NCBI GenBank assembly: GCA_018340805.1
Contig: JACMZG010001870.1
Coordinates: 53,920,073 to 53,984,072, forward strand
Length of the DNA: 64,000 nucleotides
DNA from: Microvelia longipes
Taxonomy: Eukaryota > Arthropoda > Insecta > Hemiptera > Veliidae
Direction of reading: 5' to 3'
A program made the position numbers and the translations under genes. The notes beneath the pieces were generated by a model. The model was not told the DNA's origin. It did not search any database and worked only from the letters and a program-made list of their open reading frames with translations. This document shows positions 4,524-62,846 of the stretch, piece after piece. Each line of letters begins with the position of its first letter. Within the stretch, counting starts at the first letter, position 1.

Positions 4524-6740
4524 ACTAGTAATGCGTTGCATCAAGAACTCACGTCAAAGAATACATAAAAAAATATTTATATAAGGCAAGCGAAAATGAG
4601 TTTATTAAAACATTCGATGCTATACTATTTTAAAGTATAAACTCAAAAAGGCTCGCTTCCCTTGCTAGTTTAGGTATCTTAAACATTTACATAGTAAAAA
4701 AGGCTCGCTTTGCTCGCTAGATTGCTTATATTTTATAATAATAACAAAGATAAAAAGGGCTCGCTAGATCGCTTATATTTATAATAATACAAAGTTAAAA
4801 AAGGGCTCGCTTCGCTCGCTAGATTGCGTATATTTAAAATAATACAAAGTTAAAAATAGGCTCGCTTCGCTCGCTAGATTGCTTATATTAATATAAAATA
4901 TAAAGTAAGAAGGCTCGCTTCGCTCGCTAGATTGTGTAGATTTATATTATTGCATAGTAAAAAAGGCTCGCTTCGCTCGCTTAATTGCGTATATTATATG
5001 ATAAATATATATATTTAAATGATACATTCATATAGAAGGCTCGCTTCGCTCGCTAGATTGCTTAATACAAAGTTAAAAAAAGGCTCGCTTTGCTCGCTAG
5101 AATTGCGTATATTTATATTAATGCATAGTAAAAAAGGCTCGCTTCGCTCGCTAGATAGCTTATATTTATAATAATACAAAGTTAAAAATAGGGTCGCTTC
5201 GCTCGCTAGATTGCTTATTTTAATGTTAATGCATTGCAAAAAAAGGCTCGCTTCGCTCGCTAAATAGCTTTATATTTATAATATTACAAAGTTAAAAAAA
5301 GCTCGCTTCGCTCGCTTTTTTGCGTATATTTATAATAATAAAAAGTAAAGAAGGCTCGCTTCGCTCGCTAGATTGCTTATATTAAATAAAATTATTGTAA
5401 ATAAGGCTCGCTTCGCTCGCTAGATTGCGTAGATTTATATTGATGCAAGTAAAAAGGCTCGCTTCGCTCGCTAGATTGCGTATATTTATAATAATACATA
5501 GAAAAGAAGGCTCGCTTCGCTCGCTAGATTGCTTATATTTAATATTAATGCATTGCAAAAAAGGCTCGCTTCGCTCGCTAGATAGCTTATATTTACAATA
5601 ATAACAAGTTAAAAATAGGCTCGCTTCGCTTGCTAGATTGCTTATATTTATAATAAAATATTGTAAAAAAGGCTCGCTTCGCTCGCTTTTTTGCGATATT
5701 TATAATAATAAATAGTAAAAGAAGGCTCGCTTCGCTCGCTTGATTGCGCAGATTTATATTCATGCATAGTAAAAAGAGGCTCGCTTTGCTCGCTAAATTG
5801 CTTATATTTATAATAAATATATTGTAAATAAGGCTCGCTTCGCTCCGCTAGATTGCGTATATTTAAAAAAATATATTGTAAAAAAGGCTCGCTTCGCTCG
5901 CTAGATTGCTTATATTTAAAATTATTGTAGTAAAAAAGGCTCGCTTCGCTCGCTTGATTGCGTATGTTTATAATAATACATAGTTAAAAAGGCTGCTTTA
6001 AAATTTTATTTTCTTTTTCTACTCTTTAAGAGCTTTTAAACGATATACAACACGATTTTTTGCTCAAAAATTTTTTATCAGTCCGCCATATTGGCCGCCA
6101 TTTTGAAAAATATTTTTCGGAATATTACAAAAACTATACAGCTCTGACATATAGTTAATTTTAATTGTATAAAAGTATCTAAAGTATATTACAATAGATC
6201 TTTATCTTGTAAATCTTATAAAATTAGTAAAACTAATTATTATATTAAATTATGGCCGCCATGTTGAATTTTTCGGAATTTAGTATATATCATTTTTTGT
6301 TCTACTAATCAAGAGCTTTACAACGATATTACTCGAGTTATTCCTTTAAATTTAAATTTTTTGAGTTCATTATTTTGGCCGCCATTTTTTAAAATTATTC
6401 AAAAAATTTTAAAAATGCTGACATGAAACATATATTTCTTTTTCTACTCTTTAAGAGCTTTGAAACGATATACAACACGATTTTTTCGCTCAAAATTTTT
6501 TTTTATCCGGTCCGCCATATTGGCTGCCATTTTGAAAATATTTTTCGGAATATTACCAAAAACTATACAGCTCTGACACATAATTAGTTTTACCTGTATA
6601 CAAAATTTTATTAAAATCGGTCAATTTTTACGGCAGTTATCGCGACACGTACAAACAAACACACAAACACACAAACATACAAACAAACATACGCGCCGTC
6701 CCAATCTTCTGAATGTAAGAACTCACTTACGTTCGTTCAA
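4524..6740 (+). mobile_element. satellite-bearing element, expanded copy
   Basis: Same left border (ACTAGTAATGCGTTGCATCA) and right border (CTTACGTTCGTTCAA) as 3584-4472, and the same two internal blocks (about 6041-6130 and 6460-6560). It differs by an expanded central tandem array. The two copies lie in the same orientation, 51 bp apart. No protein-coding sequence. Its right border abuts the 5' break of the LINE at 6741. Confidence 0.6.
4640..6000. repeat. 53-bp satellite with GCTCGCTTCGCTCGCT core
   Basis: About 25 tandem units of roughly 53 bp. Each holds a nearly invariant 16-bp core GCTCGCTTCGCTCGCT followed by AGATTGCTTATATTTATAAT-like AT-rich sequence. The core is far more conserved and GC-richer than the rest of the unit. 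It is internally a run of TCGCT/CGCT direct repeats, not a palindrome. Confidence 0.95.
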
Positions 6741-20067: not shown

Positions 20068-20086
20068 ATATATAATATATTTTATA

Positions 20087-20171
<85 letters not shown>
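20011..20171. repeat. (TA)n microsatellite
   Basis: About 160 bp of TA with short interruptions (20060-20110), ending 53 bp before exon 7. Confidence 0.97.
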
Positions 20172-20173
<2 letters not shown>

Positions 20174-20223
20174 CAGAGTGGGCAGAGTTATTATAATTGA
20201 TGTGTTGCATTGTTTGTTAACAG

Positions 20224-20379
20224 AGGAGTTTAACCGTCGAATGCTGAGTCCAGATCTAGAGAGTGAGGAGTTGGACACCCTATATAGAGATGCCTGGGAC
20301 CTGTATTCGGTGTACTTCAGTCCTCACTCCCCTGACAACATAGGACTGTCGTCTGATCTGGTTCTTCAGATGAGGAAAG
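20224..20379 (+). CDS. SNX14: SNX14 exon 7: RGS domain
   Basis: Acceptor TTAACAG, donor GTATGA. Two bases complete Glu, then EFNRRMLSPDLESEELDTLY, RDAWDLYSVYFSPHSPDNIG and LSSDLVLQMRK, ending with one base. VEEFNxRxLxPxL matches vertebrate SNX14 directly. The exon lies 50 bp downstream of a long (TA)n tract (20011-20171), the remains of repeats in the intron. Confidence 0.93.
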
Positions 20380-20569
20380 GTATGACAGAGCTCCACTAAC
20401 ACTCCATCAACTCTTCACCTGACTCATGTCTTGTCAGGAAATTACAATGCTTCTGTATAACATTCTATACTATGCTCAATTCTTATAAAAACTTGTTAGT
20501 TAACTAATTATAATCTTACATATTTCCAAACTTTTATTACATTTCAAAGAGTCTTTCTCTTTAAGGAGA

Positions 20570-27079: not shown

Positions 27080-29150
27080 TCAGAAATCAGTACCTAATTT
27101 AGAATCTACACAAAATATATAAGTGCTCGTATTGCTCGTTTCATTTGTATGTTTGTTATTTGCAAATTTCGCAGAGTAAACATAATTTTACCAATTTCAC
27201 TAGGGCTCATTTCGCTCGCCTATATGTGTCTGTTGGCACTGATTTTAGAAAAAAAAAAATTATAATACAACATAAAATTTGAGTAAACATCTGCTTGTTT
27301 AGTACTAGCCAATTTCAAACTATAAATTAAATTTTTACATAACAATCTAGAGCTCGCTTCCCTCGCCTATATATATTTGTTTGTCGATACCTAATTTTTG
27401 AGAAAATTTAAAACCATAACAAAATTTAAGGGCTCGCTTCACTCGCCTTTATGTATTAGTTTATCAGAACCTCATTTTAGCATAGAGTAAAGACATAAAT
27501 AATATTCTGGGCTCGCTTTGCTCGCCTTGAGGTGCTTGTTTGGTACTAGCCAATTTTAAACTATAGAATCAAACTTTTACATATCAATCTAGGGCTCGCT
27601 TCGCTCGCTTATAGAAGTTTGTTTGTCGATACCTAAATTTAGAAAAAAAATTAAAACATAAAATAAGATTCAAGGGCTTGCTTCGCTCGCCTTTATGTGC
27701 TTGTTTGTCAATATCTACTTTAAGAGAAACATTTTAAACAAGGCATGAAAATCATGGGCTCGCTTCGCTCGCCTTGATGTATATGTTTATCAGTACCTTC
27801 TTAAGAGTATAAAATAAAAATAACCATACAATACTAGGGCTCGCTTCGCTCGCCTTTATGTTGTTTTTCAATATCCATTATAAGAGAAACATTTTAAACA
27901 AGGCATTAAAAACATGGGCTCGCCTTTTTGTATATGTTTATTAGTACCTTCTTAAAAGTAAAAAAAAAAAAAACCATACAATACTAGGGCTCGCTTCGCT
28001 CGCCTTTATATGCTTATTTGTCAATATCTACTTTAAGAGAAACATTTAAAACAAGGCATAAAAATCATAGGCTCGCTTCGCTCGTCTTTTTGTATATGTT
28101 TATCAGTACCTTCTTAAGATTATAAATTAAAAATAACCATACAAAACTAGGGCTCGCTACGCTCGCCTTTATGTGCTTGTTGGTCAATATCTACTTTAAG
28201 AGAAACATTTTAAGAAAGGCATAAAAATCATGGGCTCGCTTCGCTCGCCTTTTTGTATATGTTTATTAGTACCTTCTTAAAAGTAAAAAATAAAAAAAAC
28301 CATACAATACTAGGGCTCGCTTCGCTTGCCTTTATATGCTTATTTGTCAACATCTACTTTAAGAGAAACATTTAAAACAAGGCATAAAATCATGGGCTCG
28401 CTTCGCTCGCCTTTTTGTATATGTTTATCAGTACCTTTTTAAGAGTATAAATTAAAAACCATACAATACTCGGGCTCGCTTCGCTTGCCTTTATGTGCTT
28501 GTTTGTCAATATCTACTTTAAGAGAAACATTTTAAACAAGGCATAAAAATCATGGGCTCACTTCGCTCGCCTTTTTGTATATGTTTATCAGTACCTTCTT
28601 AAGAGTATAAAATAATAAAAATAACCATGCAAAACTAGGGCTCGCTTCGCTCGCCTTTATGATCTTGTTTGTCAATATCTATTTTAATAGAAACATTTTA
28701 AACAAGGCATGAAAATCATGGGCTCGCTTCGCTCGCCTTTTTGTAAATGTTTATAAGTACCTTCTTTAGAGTATAAATTAAAAATAACCATACAATACTA
28801 GGGCTCGCTACGCTCGCCTTTACATGCTTGTTTGTCTATATCTATTATAAGAGAAACATTTTAAAAAAGGCATAAAAATCATGGGCTCGCTTCGCTCGCC
28901 TTTTTGTATATGTTTATCAGTACCTTTTTAAGAGAATAAATTAAAAATAACCATACAATACTAGGGCTCGCCTTTATATGCTTATTTGTCAATATCCATA
29001 ATAGAAGAAACATTTTAAACAAGGCATAAAAAACATGGGCTCGCTTCGCTCGCCTTTTTGTATATGTTTATCAGAACCTAATTTTATAGCATAGAGTAAA
29101 AACATAACATAATATTCTAGGGCTCGCTTCGCTCACCTTTATTTGCTTGG
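27080..29150. repeat. dimeric ~80-bp satellite with GGGCTCGCTTCGCTCGCC core
   Basis: About 24 units with a period near 80 bp. Two unit types alternate: one with TTTGTCAATATCTACTTTAA after the core, the other with TTTTTGTATATGTTTATCAG, so the higher-order period is near 160 bp. The core GGGCTCGCTTCGCTCGCC is almost invariant, while AT-rich parts vary. The left part (26990-27430) is more divergent, consistent with array-edge decay. The core is the same 15-mer as in the otherwise unrelated array at 4640-6000. Confidence 0.95.
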
Positions 29151-29186: not shown

Positions 29187-30010
29187 GGCGGGTGTAATAG
29201 CCGCTATTTTGAAACTTTTTTTCCGAAGAATTTCTATGGCTCGGAAAGTGCTTTTATTGGCTATTGGTCCCATATTTTTAGGGCTTCTCCTTATGCCTTA
29301 AAAGGGGGGGACAAGCATTTTTTGGTGGTTTTCGAGATTTTTGGCGGGTGTAATAGCCGTCATTTTGAAAAGCGATGCATATTTGTGTACTACCCATCGA
29401 TACCTACAATTTGATACCCCACATGATTTTTCAAAAAAATATTTTTTTTGGCGCGTGCGCGTATGGGCGATTTTGAAATTGCTAAAATTAACTTTTGAAA
29501 CTTTTTTTCCGAAGAATTTCTATGGCCCGGGAAGTGCTTTTTTTTGGCTATTGGTCCCATATTTTTAGGGCTTCTCCTTATGCCTTAAAGGGGGGGGGAC
29601 AAGCATTTTTTGGTGGTTTTCGAGATTTTTGGCGGGTGTAAGAGCCGCCATTTTGAAAAAGCGATGCATATTTGTGTACTACCCATCGATACCTACAATT
29701 TGATACCCCACATGATTTTTCAAAAAATATTTTTTTGGCGCGTGCGCGTATGGGCGATTTTGAAATTGCTAAAATTAACTTTTGAAACTTTTTTTCCAAA
29801 GAATTCTATGGCCCGGGAAGTGCTTTTTTTGGCTATTGGTCCATATTTTTAGGGTTTCTCCTTATGACTTAAAAGGGGGGGGGACAAGCATTTTTTGGTG
29901 GTTTTCGAGATTTTTGGCGGGTGTAATAGCCGCCATTTTGAAAAAGCGATGCATATTTGTGTACTACCTATCGATACCTACAATTTGATACCCCACATGA
30001 TTTTTAAAAA
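29187..30010. repeat. 288-bp tandem repeat, about 3.2 copies
   Basis: Copies start with GGCGGGTGTAATAGCCG at 29187, 29343, 29631 and 29916. The spacing is 156, 288 and 285 bp: the first copy lacks about 130 bp and the last is partial. Each full unit holds GCGCGTGCGCGTATGGGCGA and a 7-10 base G run. Frames open on both strands are by-products of the repeat. Confidence 0.95.
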
Positions 30011-30176
30011 AAATCATAAATCGTCATAAATCGACAGATGCGCGTGTGATATAGTTGGCTATATTTTTCCTGTTGTTGGATAAAATAGTTACTCATGTAT
30101 ACTAAATTTCATTTTCCTAGCTATTGTAGTTCCTGAGATGAGAAATCGGACAGACAGACGCTCGACAGAAAGTATA

Positions 30177-37388: not shown

Positions 37389-37397
37389 TGTGTATAT
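37389..37397. repeat. target-site duplication TGTGTATAT, left
   Basis: Nine bases directly left of the fold-back element, identical to 48596-48604 on the right. Confidence 0.85.
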
Positions 37398-40265
37398 GGT
37401 ACTCACTATTTCACCGAACTGCCGAATTTTTGCCGAACTATGTATAGCTAAGTGTATAAGTAAAAAACGCTCAAAATTAAATAAACATATCGTATAGATT
37501 GTCAAAAATTTTAATATTTGTGTAATAAACTATAAATTAATATACTGTATTGCGGAATTTAACATACCTGTCGTAAAAGAAACATATATTATTTAACACA
37601 ACACTTTATTAACAAACATAAATTATTTAACTATTGCTAACTATATGGTCTAATATACGAGTACACAACAAAAAGTAGAAAACTATAAATAATTAATAAT
37701 TATAATTATATAATTACATATAGAACATATTTTTGCGGGTTTAGTATAGTTAAGCAACTTAATTTGATTCTGCAAAACTAATTATTGCATTCTCAAATTC
37801 TATAAAAATTCAAGAGGCGCAGCAAAACTAGCTAAATCATGTTGTTGCGTTACAGGTTTCATATAATTCGGTACCAACATTAACAGTTGTGACATACTGT
37901 AAATTAATAATTATACATTGCAGGGTTAGTATAGTTCGGCAGCTTTGTGTAGTTCGGCCGAACTATAAAAAAATCTATATAAAATCAGGGGATTGTTGAA
38001 ATTAAATAAAACTTAGTAAACATATAGAAACTAATAGCAGTAGTAACATACTGCAAATTAATGATGCTATATTGCGGTTTAGTATAGTTCGGCAACTTGT
38101 ATAGTTTGGCCGAACTATAAAAAAATCTATATAAAATCAGAGGATTGTTGAACTGAAATAAAACTTTGTAAACGTGTACAGAGTAACAGCAGTGGTAACA
38201 TACTGCAAATTAATAATTCTGCGTTGCGGCTTTAGTATAGTTCGGCAGCTTTGTTTAGTTCGGCCGAACTATATAAAAATCTATATAAAATCAGGAGATT
38301 GTTTAAATTAAATAAAACTTAGTAAACATATAGAAACTAACAGCAGTAGTAACATACTGCAAATTAATGATGCTATTTTGCGGGTTTAGTATAGTTCGGC
38401 AGCTTTGTATAGTTCGGCCGAACTATAAAAAGATCTATATAAAATCAGGAGATTGTTGAAATTAAATAAAACTTTGTAAACATATAGAAACTAATAGCAG
38501 TAGTAACATACTGCAAATTAATGATGCTATATTGCGGGTTTAGTATAGTTCGGCAACAATGTATAGTTCGGCCGAACTATAAAAAAATCTATATAAAATC
38601 AGGAGATTGTTGAAATTAAATAAAACTTAGTAAACATATAGAAACTAATAGCAGTAGTAACATACTGCAAATTAATGATGCTATATTGCGGGTTTAGTAT
38701 AGTTCGGCAACAATGTATAGTTCGGCCGAACTTTTCAAAATTCTATATAAAATCATAGGATTGTTGAACTGGAATAAAACTTTGTAAACGTATACAGATT
38801 AACAGCAGTGGTAACATACTGCAAATTAATAATTCTGCGTTGCGGCTTTAGTATAGTTCGGCAACTTTGTATAGTTCGGCCGAACTATAAAAAGATCTAT
38901 ATAAAATCAGGAGATTGTTGAAATTAAATAAAACTTAGTAAACATATAGAAACTAATAGCAGTAGTAACATACTGCCAATTAATGATGCTATATTGCGGG
39001 TTTAGTATAGTTCGGTAACATTGTCTAGTTCGGCCGAACTATAAAAAGATCTATATAAAATCAGGAGATTGTTGAAATTAAATAAAACTTAGTAAACATA
39101 TAGAAACTAATAGCAGTAGTAACATACTTCCAATTAATGATGCTATATTGCGGGTTTAGTATAGTTCGGTAACATTGTATTGTTTGGCCGAACTTTAAAA
39201 AAATCTATATAAAATCAGGAGATTGTTGAAATTAAATAAAACTTAGTAAACATATAGAAACCTAAACAGCAGTAGTAACATACTGCAAATTAATGATGCT
39301 ATTTTGCGGGTTAGTATAGTTCGGCCGAACTATAAAAAATCTATATAAAATCAGGGGATTTTGAACTGAAATAAAACTGTGTAAACGTATACAGAGTAAC
39401 AGCAGTGGTAACATACTGCAAATTAATAATTCTGCGTTGCGGGTTTAGTATAGTTCGGCAGCATTGTATAGTTTGGCCGAACTATATAAAATTCTATAAA
39501 ATCAGGAATTGTTGAAATTAAATAAAACTTAGTAAACATATAGAAACTAACAGCAGTAGTAACATACTGCAAATTAATGATGCTATTTTGCGGGTTTAGT
39601 ATAGTTCGGCAGCTTTGTATAGTTCGGCCGAACTATAAAAAAATCTATATAAAATCAGGGGATTGTTGAACTGAAATAAAACTGTGTAAACGTATACAGA
39701 GTAACAGCAGTGGTAACATACTGCAAATTAATAATTCTGCGTTGCGGGTTTAGTATAGTTCGGCAGCATTATAGTTTGGCCGAACTATATAAAATTCTAT
39801 ATAAAATCAGGAGATTGTTGAAATTAAATAAAACTTAGTAAACATATAGAAACTAACAGCAGTAGTAACATACTGCCAATTAATGATGCTATATTGCGGG
39901 TTTAGTATAGTTCGGTAACATTGTCTAGTTCGGCCGAACTATGTAAAATCTATGTTAAATTAGGGGATTGTTGAAATTCAATAAAACTTAGTAAACATAT
40001 AGATATTACTTACATACTGCAAATTAATAATGCTACGTTGTAGGTTTAAAATAGGCCGGCAGCTTTGTATAGTTTGTCCTATTTATATAAAAATTGTTTT
40101 CGAAATCAGGGGATTGTTGAAATGAAATAAAACTTTGTAAACATATAGAAAATAACAGCAAAAGTAATATACTGCAACTAATAATGCTATATAGCGGTTT
40201 TAGTTTAGTTCGGCGAAAGTATATAAATTTCTATATAAAATCAAGTAACTGTTGAAATTAAATGA
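37398..40265 (+). repeat. left arm, ~153-bp satellite
   Basis: About 500 bp of unique terminal sequence (37398-37920), then tandem units such as TAGTATAGTTCGGCAGCTTT-GTATAGTTCGGCCGAACTAT followed by AAAATCTATATAAAATCAGG. Palindrome GTTCGGCCGAAC recurs about every 153 bp (near 37953, 38260, 38412, 38564, 38876, 39028, 39320, 39625, 39927), with variants between. Two unit types occur: one with AGAAACTAATAGCAGTAGTA and GATGCTATATTGCGGG, the other with ACAGAGTAACAGCAGTGGTA and AATTCTGCGTTGCGG. Innermost units are the most degraded. Confidence 0.95.
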
Positions 40266-40593
40266 ATCTGCATCTGCTAGATGTAGATGCAGATTTAAGG
40301 GGCAGCTGAGATGACCAGCTGAGGAGAGTTGCGACCTCCGATAAGTTCACCCTGAGCTTAATTACCTCATCCCAACACTTACACAAGCAATTACACTCTC
40401 AAGGTCAATAAGTTGAGGTGCTGGAAGCCTTGAACCAAGGTGGCAGGAATCAGTAAGCGAGACATGGAATGGCAGCGTTTTTAGCAACGGAGTAGCGTCC
40501 GGCCGCTGCCCCAGCCTCTGATGTCCTTTCTGGCCTCGGCCAGTTAGCCCAAAGGAAAGATGGGTTATCCTAGGTCAGTGTAAAATCCGCGGG

Positions 40594-41829
40594 ATGAGAT
40601 GCAGTGCCAGGTGGGCGCCTGGAAAGGGACCTGCTCCTTACCCCGGGGAGGCTTTGACGCGGCTGCTATGTCTGACCTGCTGTTGGAGTTTTTCCAGCCA
40701 TCTTGTTTATGGTATGAAAGCGATTCTCCTTACACCTAATCTGACACTTTTTACATTGGACACAGATGTACTCTTAGTTTATTTCAGCTATTATGATTTA
40801 ATAGAGGAAGAAGTAAATACGACTGATGCGCCAAATTCGTTGGGAGTCCTGCCCCAAGTTACGAGTTAAGTAGATAGAACAGCAGTAGGAAAGGAGAATG
40901 TAGGAGGTATATCTTAAGCAGAAGAGGAGGCCCTTCTTAAGAGCGCCCTTTTGTCGCCGACACCCTCGGACCCTTTATCAGACACCACCTCAGAGGAGCC
41001 AAATGAGGGAACGTCATGTGAGGAGGCGGCGACGAGGAGGGTTCTCAAGGGAAAAGAAAGAAAAAAGAGACAAATGAGAAAAAAAGGACAGGGAAACGAG
41101 GAGACTATCTAAAAGTGAAGGATCCAAGGAGCCACCTTTGGTACCAACCTTTGGGCAAGCAGGTGAAAGTGGGAGTCATCCCCAGCAACCAGTTCACTCA
41201 CAAGCACTGCAGGGCCCTCAGGTCTCCGGTTCTGGCGGGTGGACAGGAGGCAAAGTTTCATCTGATCCAGAGCCTCCAGGCTACCCCATTTCAGCGGCTA
41301 CAAAAATCAATCCACTTCAGGTGGTTGTTTTAAATGAGCTCTCTGATCTCCCTTTAACTAGAGCCGAGACAGACCTACTTAGGCGACATTTAGATGACAG
41401 CTCTATGGAGGCAATGGGTGGTGAATTTTCTTTTGAACACCAGGGTCCGGAGTTGAGATATGAACAAGCTGGCCTCGTGAACCCAGGTTGGTTACTCATC
41501 GCCTCTTCTGATGAAGTCTCTATGGAATGGACTCTAAAGGAATGGAGGCCACCAACTATTGAGGGACTGGGTTTTAGAGTGGTGCGGCGTTCTGACGCTC
41601 CCTGGCCCATCAGAGTGACCTTTTGGTTGCGGGTAGAACAACAGCCAATCCTGAAACCACCTTCTGTCGGTTATACCACCGGAACCGATCTACAGTTCCT
41701 GGTATACGCCACTGGACCTCTAGTGCTGTTGAGGGTAGACCTGGAAACTGGCATGTTTCCTATTGGGCCAGGTCAGAGGACTTACCTCATTTAGAGGAAG
41801 TAGGCTGGAGGTTGTACTTTAGGCAGTAG
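40594..41829 (+). pseudogene. LOA-like LINE ORF1 (DUF4780-like)
   Basis: Broken frames. 41138-41794 carries HPQQPVHSQALQGPQVSGSG, then LNELSDLPLTRAETDLLRRH, GLVNPGWLLIASSDEVSMEW, TLKEWRPPTIEGLGFRVV. The xGWLLIxxxDExSxxWxxxxxP pattern resembles the DUF4780-type domain found in ORF1 of LOA/R1-type arthropod LINEs. A basic, Arg/Lys-rich stretch (40980-41090) precedes it. The N-terminus is disrupted near 40700. Confidence 0.6.
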
Positions 41830-42316
41830 TTTCTCTAACTAAAGCAGTCGAGCAAGACACTGGCTCCAGCACAGAGCAGGAAACCTCCCAGACTAATGAC
41901 CAACCGACCCCATGATGGTGCATTTTTATCAAATAAATCTGCATCACAGCAAGGAGGCGACAGCTGAGCTTGTACGCCATCTTGCAAAGAGGTCATCTAC
42001 GGTGGTTCTCTCAAGAACCTTATGTCTTCCGTGGCAAGGTCAGAGGTCTGGGAGGATATGAATTCACTATTCTCACAGATTTGAGGTGTCTTGGACTAAA
42101 GTTAATAGTAAAACAGTTCGGTGCTCTATCCAAGACTGATGTTAAAATCTCTATTTTTCAAAAATTGAAAACATCGACATAACAACAATAATAATAATAA
42201 AATTGCATTTCCTTAGAGATCGCGACACTCTGAGGGCAGAGAATTAAGCTGGGTAAGCTTCAATGATATTAAAGGCTGCTACTTGATCTGTCCAGGCCTT
42301 AATTTTGCCTTTAGTC

Positions 42317-43163
<847 letters not shown>

Positions 43164-45729
43164 GACAGTCTCTAACTCACTGAAAGAAAGTCTAACACAA
43201 CCTACTGTCCTTCTCAGACAATTTTGAATATTATAAATTAAGCGTTCATAAAACCACTTTCTGCATCCAATTCTGCCTTGGACTAAAGTTAATAATAAAA
43301 CAGTTTGGTGCTCTATCCAAGACTGATGTCAAAATCTCTATTTTTCATAAATTGAAAACATCAACATAACAACAATAATAATAATTAAATCGCGTTTCCT
43401 TAGAGAGCGCGACATGAGGAATGACATTCCAAGAAGCTGCATTGTAGCAACCAAGGATTTAAAAATTTCTCACCTATTAGAAATTGGATCCAGGGATGCT
43501 ACAGCAGCTATCTTGGAATGTAAGGTTAATGGCCAACCCTCCAACATCCTGGTGGTGAGTCTATACTTACCGTATGACTCTGCCACCCCTCCCCCTTCGG
43601 AAGAGATGTGTAGAGTGGTTGGATAAGCTGAGGAAAATAACCTTGAGATGGTTATAGGATGTGACGCTAACGTTCACCACATAGTGTGGGGCAGCTCTGA
43701 TTGTAACCAGAGAGGAGAATCACTATTTAAGTACCTCTTGGGAACGAATTTAGAGCTGCTTAACCGTGGTAAGGAGGCGACTTTTGTCAATCGAAGGAGG
43801 AGGGAAGATATTGACATAACGGTTGCATCCAGAGCGTTGGACATGAAAATCTCAAAAACTGGAGGGTCACTACGGACATATCAACTTCCGATCATCGTAT
43901 GATTTCTTTTGATATGCCTAGTGACGATGGGCCCCCCACTTTTAGGCGCAACCCCAGGAAGACTGACTGGACGGCTTTCTCTGAGAAGCTGTCCTCTCTT
44001 CCAGAGTAAACGCCAGGGGATTATGGCAATGGCCAGATTTTTCTGGAAGGTGCCATAGCCCTCTCTAACAATCTAAGGAATACCTTTGAGGAAACCTGCC
44101 CCTTAGTCTCTGAACCGGTGCGTAAGATGCGATGGAGGACTCGCCATCTTTCTCTTCTACGGAGGAAGATGCGAAGGGCTCTAAACCGTGCCGTGAGATC
44201 TATGGACCAACTGCACTGGGATAATTAATAAGGGGCTAGAAAGGAATTTAAAAAAAGAGGTCAGGAGAAGCAAATGAGCCAGCTGGCAGACCCATTGTGA
44301 GGAGATTTCATCCATGGCAGATGCTTTCAGGCTCTCTAAACTGCTTAGTGAGGAAGGGAGAAGAAATGTGCTTGGATCTCTTAAGAGATCATATGGCACA
44401 TCGACCAAAGGAAAATATGGAACCTAGCTGATAAGGTCATCTCTTATGGTGCCATAAATTAGGCATTCAGTCAGTTTGAGGCTATAAAAGCACCAGGCCC
44501 TGACAGGATTCCTCTTATTGTGCTGCAGCATAGCATGGATGTCATTTACCCATCTTTGAGTAAATTATTTCGAGCTAGCGTGGCATGGGAGGAGGTTCCC
44601 GGAATGGAAGGCGGCAAGGTGGTCTTTATTCCCAAACCTGGGAAGACTGACTACACTCAGGCTAAGTCTTTCAGACCTATTTGCCTTACTTCCTTTATAG
44701 GTACGGGCCAAGAAAGGATTATGGATAATTATATCCGTGAGGAATTTCTCTCCCGTGACCCTCTTCATCCAAACCAGCATGCTTTTCAGCGGCATAAGTT
44801 GACTGAATCTGCCCTTCATGCGCTGGTCAGTGAGGTTGAGAAATTTCTGGACTCTGGAGAATTCTGCCTTGCTTTCTTCTTTAATTTTGAGGGTGCCTTC
44901 GATCGGGCAAGAATTAAGGTCATATGCAAAGCTCTCAGTAAGAGAGGGTCCCCAAAGGCCCTTACGAACTGTGTTACCTCCTTATTGGAGGTGACGGAGG
45001 GGCGGAGGTTCAAGTGACTGGCGGCTGCCCTCATAATAGCTACCTGTCGCAATTAATATGGTGCTTGGTCATTGATAGCTTTCTAAGGAAGTTAACCGCC
45101 AAAGGCTTTTAAGTCCAAGCGTATGCCGATGATGGTGTTGTTCTAGTAAAAGGACGCTTTCTTATAACGGTATGTGAGCTAATGCAAGAGGTTGCCTCTT
45201 TTTTGGAAGGCTGGCAGCCATTTAAAGCTTAGTAACGGTATTAAGTTTTTGGGTATTATCTTGGATCTGAAACTTAACTGGAAACCCCACAATGATAAGG
45301 TAGTTAATAAAGGATTGTCAACGTTGTGGCAGCTTAGACGCGCAGTTGGTAGGACTTGGGGATTTACTCCCAAAGTTGTCCACTGGCTCTACACTGCGAT
45401 AGTCAGACCAAGGATCCACTATGGATCCATTGTCTGGTGGCCGCGTGTGGAGCTTGCAACTGCTGCAAAAAAGCTGTCTAAGATCCAAAGACTTGTGTGT
45501 CTTGCGTTCTCTGGTTCTCTAAGGTCTACACCCTCCACTGCTGTGAAGACCTTACTCGGTCTTCCTCCTCTCTTAAGTTAGATTGAGTCACAGGCTATGG
45601 CAACCTGTTTAAGATTACGCCCGACGGGTCTTTGGCTTGATCCTAGAAAGAGAACGAAAGGGCATGCAAGGATCGCCAATTTGTTAACCACGGAGTTACC
45701 AATTACTTCTGCCTAGGGCAAAGCAATTT

Positions 45730-48595
45730 ATGATTGTATACTAAACCAGCAACGTAGCATTATTAATTTGCAGTATATTACTTTTTACGTTAATGTTTTT
45801 TGCAGTGTTTTACTTTTTTTATTACTATCATGTTCTGCTGTTATTTTTTTCATGTTTACTTAGTTTTGTTTAATTTCAACTATCCCCTGTTATTATACAA
45901 AATTTTACATAGTTCGGCCGAACTATACTAAAGCCGCAACGCAAAATTATTAATTTGCAGTATGTTACTACTGCTGTTACTCTGTATACGTTTACAAAGT
46001 ATTATTTCAGTTCAACAATCCCCTGATTTTATATAGATTTTTTTATAGTTCGGCCGAATTATACAAAGCTGCCGAACTATACTAAACCCGCAATATAGCA
46101 TCATTGCAGTATGTTACTACTGCTGTTAGTTTCTATATGTTTACTAAGTTTTATTTAATTTCAACAATCTCCTGATTTTATATAGATTTTTTTAAAGTTC
46201 GGCCGAACTATACAAAGTTGCCAAACTATACTAAAGCCGCAATATAGCATCATTAATTTGCAGTATGTTACTACTGCTATTAGTTTCTATATGTTTACTA
46301 AGTTTTATTTAATTTCAACAATCTCCTGTTTTTATATAGATTTTTTTATAGTTCGGCCAAACTATACAAAGTTGCCGAACTATACTAAACCCCCAATATA
46401 GCATCATTAATTTGCAGTATGTTACCACTGCTGTTACTCTGTATACGTTTACAAATTTTTATTCCATTTAACAATCCCCTGATTTTATATAGATTTTTAT
46501 AGTTCGGCCGAACTATACAAAGTTGCCGAACTATACTAAACCCGCAATATAGCATCATTAATTTGCAGTATGTTACCACTGCTGTTACTCTGTATACGTT
46601 TACAAAGTTTTATTCCAGTTTAACAATCCCCTGATTTTATATAGATTTTTTTATAGTTCGGCCGAACTATACAAAGCTGCCGAACTATACTAAATCCGCA
46701 ATATAGCATCATTAATTTGCAGTATGTTACTACTGCTGTTAGTTTCTATATGTTTACTAAGTTTTATTTAATTTCAACAATCTCCTGATTTTATGTAGAT
46801 TTTTTTATAGTTCGGCCGAACTATACAAAGTTGCCGAACTATACTAAAGCCGCAACGCAGAATTATTAATTTGCAGTATGTTACCACTGCTATTAGTTTC
46901 TATATGTTTACTAAGTTTTATTTAATTTCAACAATCTCCTAATTTTATATAGAATTTATATAGTTCGGCCAAACTATACAAGTTGCCGAACTATACTAAA
47001 GGCACAACGCAGAATTATTAATTTGCAGTATGTTACCACTGCTGTTACTCTGTATACGTTTACAAGTTTTATTTCATTTCAACAATCCCCTGATTTTATA
47101 TAGATTTTTTATAGTTCGGCCGAACTATACAAAGTTGCCGAACTATACTAAACCCGCAAAATAGCATCATTAATTTGCAGTATGTTACTACTGCTGTTAG
47201 TTTCTATATGTTTACTAAGTTTTATTTAATTTCAACAATCCCTGATTTTATATAGATTTTTTATAGTTCGGCCGAACTATACAAAGTTGCCGAACTATAC
47301 TAAAGCCGCAACGCAGAATTATTAATTTGCAGTATGTTACCACTGCTGTTACTCTGTATACGTTTACAAAGTTTTATTTCAGTTCAACAATCCCCTGATT
47401 TTATATAGATTTTTTTATAGTTCGGCCGAACTATACAAAGCTGCCGAACTATACTAAACCTGCAATATAGCATAATTAATTTGCAGTATGTTACTACTGC
47501 TGTTAGTTTCTATATGTTTACTAAGTTTTATTTAATTTCAACAATCCCTGATTTTATATAGATTTTTTATAGTTCGGCCGAACTATACATGTTGCCGAAC
47601 TATACTAAACCCGCAATATAGCATCATTAATTTGCAGTATGTTACTACTGCTATTAGTTTCTATATGTTTACTAAGTTTTATTTAATTTCAACAATCTCC
47701 TGATTTTATATAGATTTTTTTATAGTTCGGCCGAACTATACAAAGTTGCCGAACTATACTAAACCCGCAATATAGCATCATTAATTTGCAGTATGTTACC
47801 ACTGCGGTTACTCTGTATACGTTTACAAAGTTTTATTCCAGTTTAACAATCCCATGATTTTATATAGAATTTTGAAAAGTTCGGCCGAACTATACAAAGC
47901 TGCCGAACTATACTAAACCCGCAATATAGCATCATTAATTTGCAGTATGTTACTACTGCTATTAGTTTCTATATGTTTACTAAGTTTTATTTAATTTCAA
48001 CAATCCCCTGATTTTATATAGATTTTTTTATAGTTCGGCCGAACTACACAAAGCTGCCGAACTATACTAACCCTGCAATGTATAATTATTAATTTACAGT
48101 ATGTCACAACTGTTAATGATGGTACCGAATTATATGAAACCTGTAACGCAACAACATGATTTAGCTAGTTTTGCTGCGCCTCTTGAATTTTTATAGAATT
48201 TGAGAATGCAATAATTAGTTTTGCAGAATCAAATTAAGTGTCTTAACTATACTAAACCCGCAAAAATATGTTCTATATGTAATTATATAATTATAATTAT
48301 TTATAGTTTTCTACTTTTTGTTGTGTACTCGTATATTAGACCATATAGTTAGCAATAGTTAAATAATTATTATGTTTGTTAATAAAGTGTTGTGTTAAAT
48401 AATATATGTTTCTTTTACGACAGGTATGTTAAATTCCGCAATACAGTATATTAATTTATAGTTTATTACACAAATATATTAATATTTTTGACAATCTATA
48501 AGATATGTTTATTTAATTTTGAGCGTTTTTTACTTATACACTTAGCTATACATAGTTCGGCAAAAATTCGGCAGTTCGGTGAAATAGTGAGTACC
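45730..48595 (-). repeat. right arm, ~153-bp satellite
   Basis: Reverse-complement counterpart of the left arm: units such as AACCCGCAATATAGCATCAT, TAATTTGCAGTATGTTACTA and ATAGTTCGGCCGAACTATAC. The palindrome recurs near 45913, 46052, 46198, 46504, 46658, 46812, 47118, 47270, 47421, 47573, 47725, 47878 and 48034. The outermost 480 bp (48110-48595) are the unique terminal sequence, matching 37398-37900 inverted. The same two unit types mix in both arms. Confidence 0.95.
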
Positions 48596-48604
48596 TGTGT
48601 ATAT
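48596..48604. repeat. target-site duplication TGTGTATAT, right
   Basis: Nine bases directly right of the fold-back element, identical to 37389-37397. Confidence 0.85.
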
Positions 48605-52469: not shown

Positions 52470-53410
52470 ATACAAACTCATCATTATTATGACATTGAGT
52501 TCTGGATGCAGGTATGTAAAAAAGCTCTCGCTGTCTTATAAGTCTCTTATAATAATATTCACAACTGTCAATATTATTATTTATAAGTTTATATAATATG
52601 ACCATACTGCTGACTTTGCGTTGAGTCTCTAGATTGTTGTAAGAGAGATCAGTTCCTAAAGTCAAAGTGGGAGTATCTCCAGGAGTACACATCATGTTTC
52701 TTGTAGTAGAGGTACCTGAGGAACCTGTTCTGGACCACCTCAATCTGTTTACATGCTTTCTTGCTACTTGGTGACCATACCGCCGGACAGTATTCTAACT
52801 TAGATCTTATTAAAGAATTAAATAATAACTTGATAGCTGTCAAGTTATTAAAGTCCATAGTGTTTCTTTTAATAAATACAAGTAATTTATAAGGGTCATT
52901 AATAATGTTATTTATATGTAGTTTAAATGAAAGATAACATGTTGTTTATGCATTTTTGAGGAGAAATCCAAGTTATTTTTTCATGTAAACATCATGAAAT
53001 TACATTTCTCTATATTGAGATACATGTTATTTAGAGGAAACCAGTTCACCACTCTATCAAGATCTGCCTGAAGTAGAGAGACATCCAGAATATTATAAAT
53101 TTTTTTATATATTTTACTATCATCCGCAAAAAGAGATTTGCCTGGAATGCTCCACCACTCCAGGCAGATCATGATTAAAAATAATAATGGAGCCAGAACA
53201 GATCCCTGAGGCAACCCACGGCTATTAATAAAACAAGCAGATTTCCAATCAAACACCTCAACATAATTTTCTCTGTTAAACAAATAACTAATAATAAAAT
53301 TAATCAAATTTGTTGAAAAATTCATTTTAAACATTTTATTAATTAAAATATCAAGATGCAATTTATCAAAGGCCTTGGCAAAATCCAGATAAATGACATC
53401 TGTGCGTTGC
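52470..53410 (-). pseudogene. antisense LINE RT fragment (LINE F)
   Basis: Minus strand: LQRTDVIYLDFAKAFDKLHL (RT block A), INSRGLPQGSVLAPLLF (block B), SLFADDSKIYKK (FADD catalytic motif), NNMYLNIEKCNFMMF; after an indel, NSLIRSKLEYCPAVWSPSSK, IEVVQNRFLRYLYYKK; C-terminal part MVILYKLINNNIDS. 5'-truncated exactly at the exon 12 acceptor: the last recognisable codon (Leu-Gln of LQRTD) is the complement of the TTGCAG splice signal. Confidence 0.85.
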
Positions 53411-53412
53411 AG

Positions 53413-53580
53413 GTTGAAGCCTGGGCTCCTGAAGGAGTTCACAGAGAGAAGTGGACCATAGAGAGAAGAATATCAGATTTCTACAGCTTGGAAGCCAAAC
53501 TGAGTGAATTCCATGGCGAGTTTATTGAAAATAAATTACCTTCCTCTGGTATATTATCTACAATACCTACTCAGCCTCAG
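53413..53580 (+). CDS. SNX14: SNX14 exon 12: PX domain
   Basis: Acceptor TTGCAG, donor GTAACT; 56 codons, phase 0. Encodes VEAWAPEGVHREKWTIERRI, SDFYSLEAKLSEFHGEFIEN, KLPSSGIL. W-x2-xRR-x-x-(D/E)F-x-x-LExKLxEFHG is the PX signature; the two Arg of ERRISDF occupy the phosphoinositide-contact position of the fold. SNX14's PX is reported not to be a classical PI3P binder, so no ligand is claimed. Its acceptor lies within about ten bases of the 5' break of an antisense LINE (52470-53410). Confidence 0.93.
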
Positions 53581-53671
53581 GTAACTACATCACTTCTGTT
53601 AAGTCATTATCTGTTGCAGTTTTGTACTGTTTGTCAAAATTTGACCTGAATTTGTTGGCTACCTTGCTTTA

Positions 53672-61690: not shown

Positions 61691-62591
61691 TAGTAGTGAT
61701 GAGTGGGCACAATGAGACAATGTGATATTGTTTTTACAGAACAATATTTCACTCCACACTGATATTCATGTTACACGTTAATACCTAAAAATAAAAACCT
61801 TAAATAGTGAATAATTCATAATAAACAGGAAAATCAAAAAAACTACTCATGCTGTTAAAATTATTAATTAAGAAAAAAGAGGTAAAACTTACATACCGTT
61901 AGATAGTCTAACTAAGTTAAAATCAAGGTCTGAATAATGTTACAAATACCTAAAAATAATAGCAATAAATTACCAATTGAAAATAACTCATAAAATAGAA
62001 GGTGAGTAAAGACTGATAAGGATAATCAAAACAAAATATATTATAAGATGCTAACTTACTGTTAAACATGCAAAAGTCGAAGTGCAGAAGTGCAATAATT
62101 AACTATTTCATTCTTTAATTATTAGTTTTTATTAAATTTGGTTGTTTTTGTGTTTTAGCAGTAGTAATAGTAGATTTAGTGTAGATATGCACTTCGACTT
62201 TTGCATGTTTAACAGTATGTTAGCATCTTATAATATATTTTGTTTTGATTATCCTTATCAGTCTTTATTCACCTTCTATTTTATGAGTTATTTTCAATTG
62301 GTAATTTATTGCTATTATTTTTAGGTATGTGTAACATTATTCAGACCTTGATTTTAACTTAGTTAGACTATCCTAACGGTATGTAAGTTTTTACCTCTTT
62401 TTTCTTAATTAATAATTTTAACAGCATGAGTAGTTTTTTTGATTTTATTTTCCTGTTTATTATGAATTATTCACTATTTAAGGTTTTTATTTTTAGGTAT
62501 TAACGTGTAACATGAATATCAGTGTGGAGTGAAATATTGTTCTGTAAAAACAATATCACATTGTCTCATTTGTGCCCACTCATCACTACTA
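61691..62591. mobile_element. 0.9-kb fold-back element next to exon 13
   Basis: Arms of about 400 bp (61691-62090 and 62184-62591) are nearly perfect inverted copies: the left begins TAGTAGTGATGAGTGGGCAC, the right ends GTGCCCACTCATCACTACT. The loop is about 90 bp. The right end is 20 bp before the exon 13 acceptor (62611). No ORF; superfamily unknown. Confidence 0.93.
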
Positions 62592-62611
62592 ATGATTGTT
62601 ACATGTTACAG

Positions 62612-62841
62612 ATCTATGAAGCGTACATAGAGAAGTTACTGCTCAACCCCACCCTGAGAGGATCCGAGATGTTACACTGGTTCCTTACCAGCCCTGTAGA
62701 ACATTTGTCCTACATGGAGGAGAATGCTTTCAACAAGTTATTGAAGAGATCTGTTGGGACACTAAAGAAAGAGAGAGGACAAAACCTAGACACATTCATA
62801 CAGACCTACATACAATCCACTGAGAGCAAGCAGAAGAATAA
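62612..62841 (+). CDS. SNX14: SNX14 exon 13: PX domain end
   Basis: Acceptor TTACAG, donor GTAAGC. 76 codons plus two bases: IYEAYIEKLLLNPTLRGSEM, LHWFLTSPVEHLSYMEENAF, NKLLKRSVGTLKKERGQNLD and TFIQTYIQSTESKQK. ExYIxKLLxxPxLxxSxxLxxFLSP closes the PX domain; xKxxxGQxLxxFIxxxIxSxES is the SNX14-specific continuation. The acceptor sits about 20 bp from a 0.9-kb fold-back (61691-62591), and a 25-bp tandem repeat starts 5 bp after the donor. Confidence 0.93.
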
Positions 62842-62846
62842 GTAAG

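Follow-up and report, generated by a model that had tools for sequence, protein, structure and literature searches.

Transposons with long inverted arms built from repeats are a design already known from beetles, flies and nematodes. Rehavkus elements are described as having 9-bp target site duplications and a PHD-finger transposase, their inverted repeats being 26-400 bp long and their 3′ end preceded by a minisatellite (PMC6446971). In Rehavkus-1_TC of Tribolium castaneum, 9.5 kb long and present in several copies of ~95% identity, the inverted termini contain the satellite TCsat23, with a unit of 164 bp (PMC10218199, citing a Repbase report). On Rehavkus arms, what these two accounts say disagrees, since one places a satellite in the inverted ends and the other gives repeats of 26-400 bp. 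Similar composite arms are found in Tetris of Drosophila virilis (PMC4079207) and in Tm1 of root-knot nematodes, one member of which contains the gene Cg-1 (PMC3169594). Here we describe a family of this general design from the hemipteran Microvelia longipes, represented by an 11,198-bp two-ended element at positions 37398-48595 of a 64,000-bp stretch of contig JACMZG010001870.1 (hereafter the window). We consider it likely to be a DNA transposon of the Foldback/Rehavkus type, related to Mutator, non-autonomous and moved in trans.

The 11,198-bp structure is a real transposon and one of a multi-copy family. GGTACTCACTATTTCACCGA begins at 37398, its reverse complement closes at 48595, and TGTGTATAT stands on both sides as a 9-bp duplication, confirming the termini, length and duplication that a first-pass annotation of the window had proposed. 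Each arm consists of an outer domain and a satellite array (Table 1), together 2,874 bp on the left and 2,859 bp on the right, and the two outer domains share 97% identity across 500 bp. Tandem Repeats Finder (TRF) resolves a 154-bp unit, with 15.4 copies in one arm and 14.4 in the other. A profile search finds 16 unit matches per arm, all on the plus strand at the left and all on the minus strand at the right, as expected from the mirrored tandem arms of the first-pass annotation. No transposase was seen among the interior open reading frames (ORFs) scanned with Pfam, a scan that did not cover every short ORF. It returned RVT_1, Exo_endo_phos_2 and weak DUF matches below the cut-off, so that the intact transposase of an autonomous element was not present between the ends in the ORFs scanned. 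An NCBIfam scan of five interior ORFs gave nothing, nor did Rfam and tRNA scans of the window. The earlier view of an element with no visible transposase, moved in trans, stands as an inference. What must be added to that account is that the middle derives from retrotransposons.

Other copies with the same termini, whose absence the first-pass annotation had named as a refutation, exist in the same assembly and carry different 9-bp duplications. Searching its 664.6 Mb with the terminal 500 bp gave 83 candidate matches, of which 40 were scored, every one at E < 1e-97; counts of end matches are lower bounds. The outer ~285 bp of the left outer domain is matched in all 40 scored ends, although the match begins further in at the right end of copy P3 and at a few other ends. 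Twenty-four ends form 12 pairs, the window copy included, and four further ends (S3-S6) each yielded a second end, giving 16 two-ended elements of 5,479-18,479 bp. Four of these contain assembly gaps (1,000 N each in P9, P11 and S3; 1,203 N in S6). The remaining 12 ends are unpaired, namely S1, S2 and S7, read over 16, 20 and 10 kb (of S2 the end alone was examined), and nine others. Among these, S1 (C558:26830136) was considered as an autonomous copy and rejected. It has a left end and a 13-unit array, yet neither a window-type middle nor a right end within 16 kb. In the 5.7 kb past its left array no stop-free stretch exceeds 59 amino acids, and frames that look non-LTR-like (LTR, long terminal repeat) by eye follow further along. 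In viral contigs, the exact terminus pattern and the palindrome pattern described below each returned 0 matches.

Identity averages 0.980 between the two ends of the same element and 0.960 when the ends are taken from different elements. For the window copy the end-to-end value is 0.993, measured at the 276 sites without gaps in the outermost 280, and the copy groups with P4 in a tree of ends (support 0.89). To judge from sequence, the high end-to-end identity and the intact duplications point to fairly recent movement. Exchange between the two ends of one element could likewise produce high end identity.

Fourteen of the 16 two-ended elements have an exact 9-bp duplication, and all 14 sequences differ. 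P2 is counted among them if its left end, which lacks the first G, is set one base inward. Strict boundaries leave 13 of 16 exact, and granting the same shift to both P2 and P3 gives 15 of 16. Flanks offset by 50 bp never matched (0/16), nor did the left flank of one element match the right flank of another (0/240); because 14 of 16 are exact against none in either control, the duplications lie beyond chance. Among other lengths, 5, 6, 7, 10, 11, 12 and 13 bp were found in 0/16 and 8 bp in 1/16. The duplications are as AT-rich as their flanks (GC 0.31 vs 0.30), and position 8 is A in 11 of the 14.

The arms bear short motifs that might attract a transposase. Near the tip, CCGAAC/GCCGAA motifs recur about every 11 bp, one fewer in the window copy than in most others, and the same motif makes a palindrome in the 154-bp unit. 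The window copy has 30 and 37 GCCGAACTAT half-sites against 0.007 expected per strand, and half-site counts are far above chance in all 16 elements, an excess that arises because the motif sits in the repeated array itself. By likeness to the arms of Galileo, which carry repeated transposase sites (PMC3688188), the palindrome may be a transposase binding site.

Inverted arms of tandem repeats, in mirrored orientation in 15 of the 16 elements, together with the exact duplications, identify the family as Foldback-type by structure. Duplications of 8-11 bp combined with long terminal inverted repeats are also the pattern of the Mutator superfamily (Mutator-like elements, including Phantom; PMC6446971), and the family shows both. 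With Rehavkus it shares the 9-bp duplication and, as in Rehavkus-1_TC, satellite arms (PMC6446971; PMC10218199, in their passages on these elements); tandem repeats of satellite or minisatellite type, at or close to the inverted termini, are a Rehavkus trait. We regard the family as probably Rehavkus-like, not as a proven member. The outer domain would be recognised by a transposase made elsewhere, for which the repeated GCCGAACTAT-type motif of the arms would probably be a further target. The whole element would then be moved and inserted with a 9-bp staggered cut.

Several points weigh against this reading. P3 has an 8-bp match as bounded (a one-base shift like that of P2 would give nine), and the flanks of P4 carry three mismatches. 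The Rehavkus assignment is a structural one. No transposase or autonomous copy was found in the ORFs scanned, in none of which a PHD-finger DDE transposase was seen, and no genome-wide transposase search was made. Rehavkus inverted repeats, given as 26-400 bp in the available description (PMC6446971), are far shorter than the arms here: the shared terminus is ~285 bp and the outer domain of the window copy 486 bp, but the arms as a whole are inverted. Finally, palindrome conservation is 0.945 vs 0.921, and 49 of 141 windows in the unit score higher. The idea that the palindrome is the best-conserved part of the unit is accordingly not supported, and since it is not markedly better conserved, its binding role is putative.

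A P-superfamily transposase of the Galileo type, in place of a Mutator/Rehavkus one, could be the mover, with the fold-back arms having arisen independently. Galileo does combine Foldback-like arms with repeated transposase sites (PMC3688188; PMC3573991). The exact 9-bp duplication in 14 of 16 copies nevertheless makes this unlikely. Duplications of P-type elements are 7 or 8 bp long.

The Foldback/Rehavkus type remains our preferred reading, and within it the first-pass suggestion that the element might be undescribed holds for the family but not for the kind, since Rehavkus-1_TC, Tetris and Foldback follow the same plan. What is new is the family itself, how large its arms are and the presence of a retrotransposon passenger that arose once. 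A limited search of the open literature found no account of a passenger of this kind in an element with satellite arms, and the passages on Rehavkus in PMC10218199 and PMC6446971 do not mention one. TCsat23 arrays mostly hold 5 and 8 units in the description available (PMC10218199), whereas arms here hold 6-61, both extremes occurring in P6. Rehavkus is also credited with a PHD-finger transposase (PMC6446971), which the ORFs scanned here lack. Tetris is similar in its long inverted arms of a flanking domain plus ~220-bp tandem units, its variable middle, its 8-10-bp duplications, the absence of a known transposase and a stretch common to flanking domain and unit; in what its account covers, it differs in having three structurally complete copies, arms of at most 1,735 bp and a middle without apparent coding capacity (PMC4079207). 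The present family, by comparison, has 16 two-ended copies, one of which (P6) contains an array exceeding 9 kb, and carries a retrotransposon passenger with a common ancestry. Tm1 resembles it in Foldback-like composite inverted ends of variable length and 9-bp duplications, but the unit is most often 14 bp, with 1-9 per end, and some members encode a Phantom-like putative transposase, as far as that source describes them (PMC3169594). Within Drosophila a further comparison is offered by Foldback FB4, whose arm unit is much shorter than the unit here. As the Pack-TIR (terminal inverted repeat) element Ssk-FB4, it too captures and multiplies foreign sequence; the cargo reported there is a host gene, whereas here it consists of retrotransposon fragments (PMC8277862, in the part concerned with Ssk-FB4).

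The middle of the window copy is retrotransposon debris (Table 1). Its non-LTR pieces are accompanied by a BEL/Pao-like fragment, one frame of which has a weak DUF5641 match and the second, without a Pfam match, was assigned by eye. The 141-bp direct repeats bracket this BEL/Pao-like piece and are present in P4 too, whose layout resembles that of the window copy in pieces 89-98% identical. By tblastn, 13 of the 16 elements contain Ty3/Gypsy pol (in S3 a mere 33-amino-acid remnant), while the window copy, P4 and S6 are without it. In related copies the pol piece takes the place of window-equivalent 43649-43897. Its left junction lies at 43649 in 12 elements and its right junction at 43897 in 12; P11 lacks the right and S3 the left, and the unpaired S7 has both. 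Junctions common to 12 elements indicate that a single composite spread as a whole. Of the two layouts, that of the window copy is likely the older, because the non-LTR endonuclease runs unbroken there. Separately, S3 has ~3 kb of GC-rich low-complexity repeat after a shortened middle.

The Ty3/Gypsy pol might itself be considered the engine of the element, given that some of it is found in 13 of 16 copies and that one copy, P10, retains 672 stop-free codons. In the P10 frame, RNase H and integrase domains accompany a reverse transcriptase piece that covers the C-terminal end of RVT_1 (profile 133-205 of 205); in a database comparison the frame matched 4,227 proteins among 7,981 scored candidates, the best among those listed being about half identical and one being named after an errantivirus-like virus. 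We find this role very improbable. The same ends occur without Gypsy pol in the window copy and P4, and in 12 of the 13 bearers the piece is in several parts, interrupted by stops or nearly gone. By eye, it begins within the reverse transcriptase and shows neither gag, protease nor LTR, although LTRs were not searched for as such; a complete Ty3/Gypsy element, with whole pol, gag and LTRs, was not seen in the middle piece. Moreover, Ty3/Gypsy integrases make duplications of 4-6 bp, against 9 bp here. On the Foldback/Rehavkus reading, a non-LTR retrotransposon fragment would have come to sit between the arms as a passenger, the middle would later have changed once by gaining the Ty3/Gypsy pol fragment, and the composite middle would then have multiplied together with the arms.

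Array orientation is plus at the left and minus at the right in the 15 two-ended elements that show both arms; in S6, which holds the 1,203-N gap, the right (minus) array alone is seen, and the partly read S7 has mirrored arrays too. P9 (C564:22773991-22792469) has three arrays (+,+,-), two middles, one end pair and a perfect 9-bp duplication, and is a rearranged copy. Within the window copy, the best right-arm partners of left units depart from mirror order, and identity along the mirror diagonal (0.901) is close to the overall mean (0.896). P7, P4, P8 and S5 behave likewise, so that in the five of 16 elements compared the arms are not mirror copies, which, together with the recurrence of mirrored arms across elements, argues against the false inversion that the first-pass annotation had named as a danger; an assembly artefact was rejected. 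That there is no transposon at all, and that satellite arrays were mirrored by recombination or assembly error, is the least credible explanation, for although much of the element is rearrangement-prone satellite and the three arrays of P9 and the gaps in four copies give it some colour, 16 loci agree in a common ~285-bp terminus, 14 have exact duplications at different sites, and middle junctions are shared.

Among 618 full units drawn from the 16 elements, mean identity falls from 0.932 inside one arm to 0.921 across the two arms of an element and 0.908 from one element to another. For 264 units the nearest relative is in the same arm, for 308 it is in another element, and for 46 it is in the opposite arm of their own element (ties shared out). 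Homogenisation between the two arms of one element is therefore weak, with just 46 of 618 units having their nearest relative there. The unequal arms suggest that they change length freely, probably via unequal exchange or slippage. A degenerate satellite piece lies inside the left outer domain at 37733-37812, in its inner part, and beats 300 of 300 shuffles in its match to the unit. The outermost 285 bp matches the unit within chance (15/300 shuffles as good on one strand, 26/300 on the other). As the inner piece alone is above chance, derivation of the satellite from the terminus was rejected.

We speculate, with less than even confidence, that this DNA transposon might serve as a vehicle for two classes of repeats. 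It would seed mirrored satellite arrays at new places in the genome and, by DNA transposition, multiply a single dead retrotransposon chimera of non-LTR and Ty3/Gypsy pol sequence; its arms would serve as arrays of transposase sites able to expand. The family offers a many-copy case for testing how fold-back transposons and satellite DNA are connected, in which arm length, unit exchange between arms and elements, and insertion sites are readable from one assembly. Further, retrotransposon sequence multiplied inside a DNA transposon could mislead copy counts and age estimates of those retrotransposons.

Table 1. Features of the element in the window, with positions in window coordinates.
Feature	Position	Strand	Evidence or remark
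Left 9-bp target site duplication TGTGTATAT	37389-37397	n/a	Sequence reading
Left outer domain, 486 bp	37398-37883	+	Terminal matches
Left satellite array, 16 matches to 154-bp unit	37884-40271	+	TRF and profile search
Middle, captured retrotransposon debris	40272-45736	n/a	Pfam scans, comparison of copies
Stop-free frame, 238 amino acids, non-LTR ORF1-like by eye	41078-41794	+	DUF4780 match E 0.05, below cut-off
141-bp direct repeat, copy 1	42087-42227	n/a	92.9% identical to copy 2
BEL/Pao-like fragment, split by TA repeat	42317-43328	-	One frame DUF5641 E 0.0049, below cut-off
(TA)n repeat	42740-43042	n/a	Only about 20 bp at equivalent point in P4
141-bp direct repeat, copy 2	43274-43414	n/a	92.9% identical to copy 1
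Non-LTR retrotransposon endonuclease domain	43627-43902	+	PF14529, E 4.5e-14
Non-LTR reverse transcriptase fragment	44463-45017	+	PF00078, E 7.1e-7, at cut-off
Right satellite array, mirrored, 16 matches to 154-bp unit	45737-48112	-	TRF and profile search
Right outer domain, 483 bp	48113-48595	-	Terminal matches
Right 9-bp target site duplication TGTGTATAT	48596-48604	n/a	Sequence reading

The element may be located in an intron of a sorting nexin-14-like gene. An exon at 53347-53649 (+) encodes a PX domain closest to sorting nexin-14 (E 2.7e-7), a match that points to an animal genome, and 20076-20399 and 62516-62845, neither with a Pfam match, are perhaps further exons of the same gene by eye. 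A search for the host with one exon gave a single candidate, none at E 0.001. Elsewhere in the window, tandem arrays at 4645-5998 and 27337-29149 differ in unit length and have the block GGCTCGCTTCGCTCGC in common, and a 285-bp tandem repeat occupies 29207-30012 in 2.8 copies with 95% matches.

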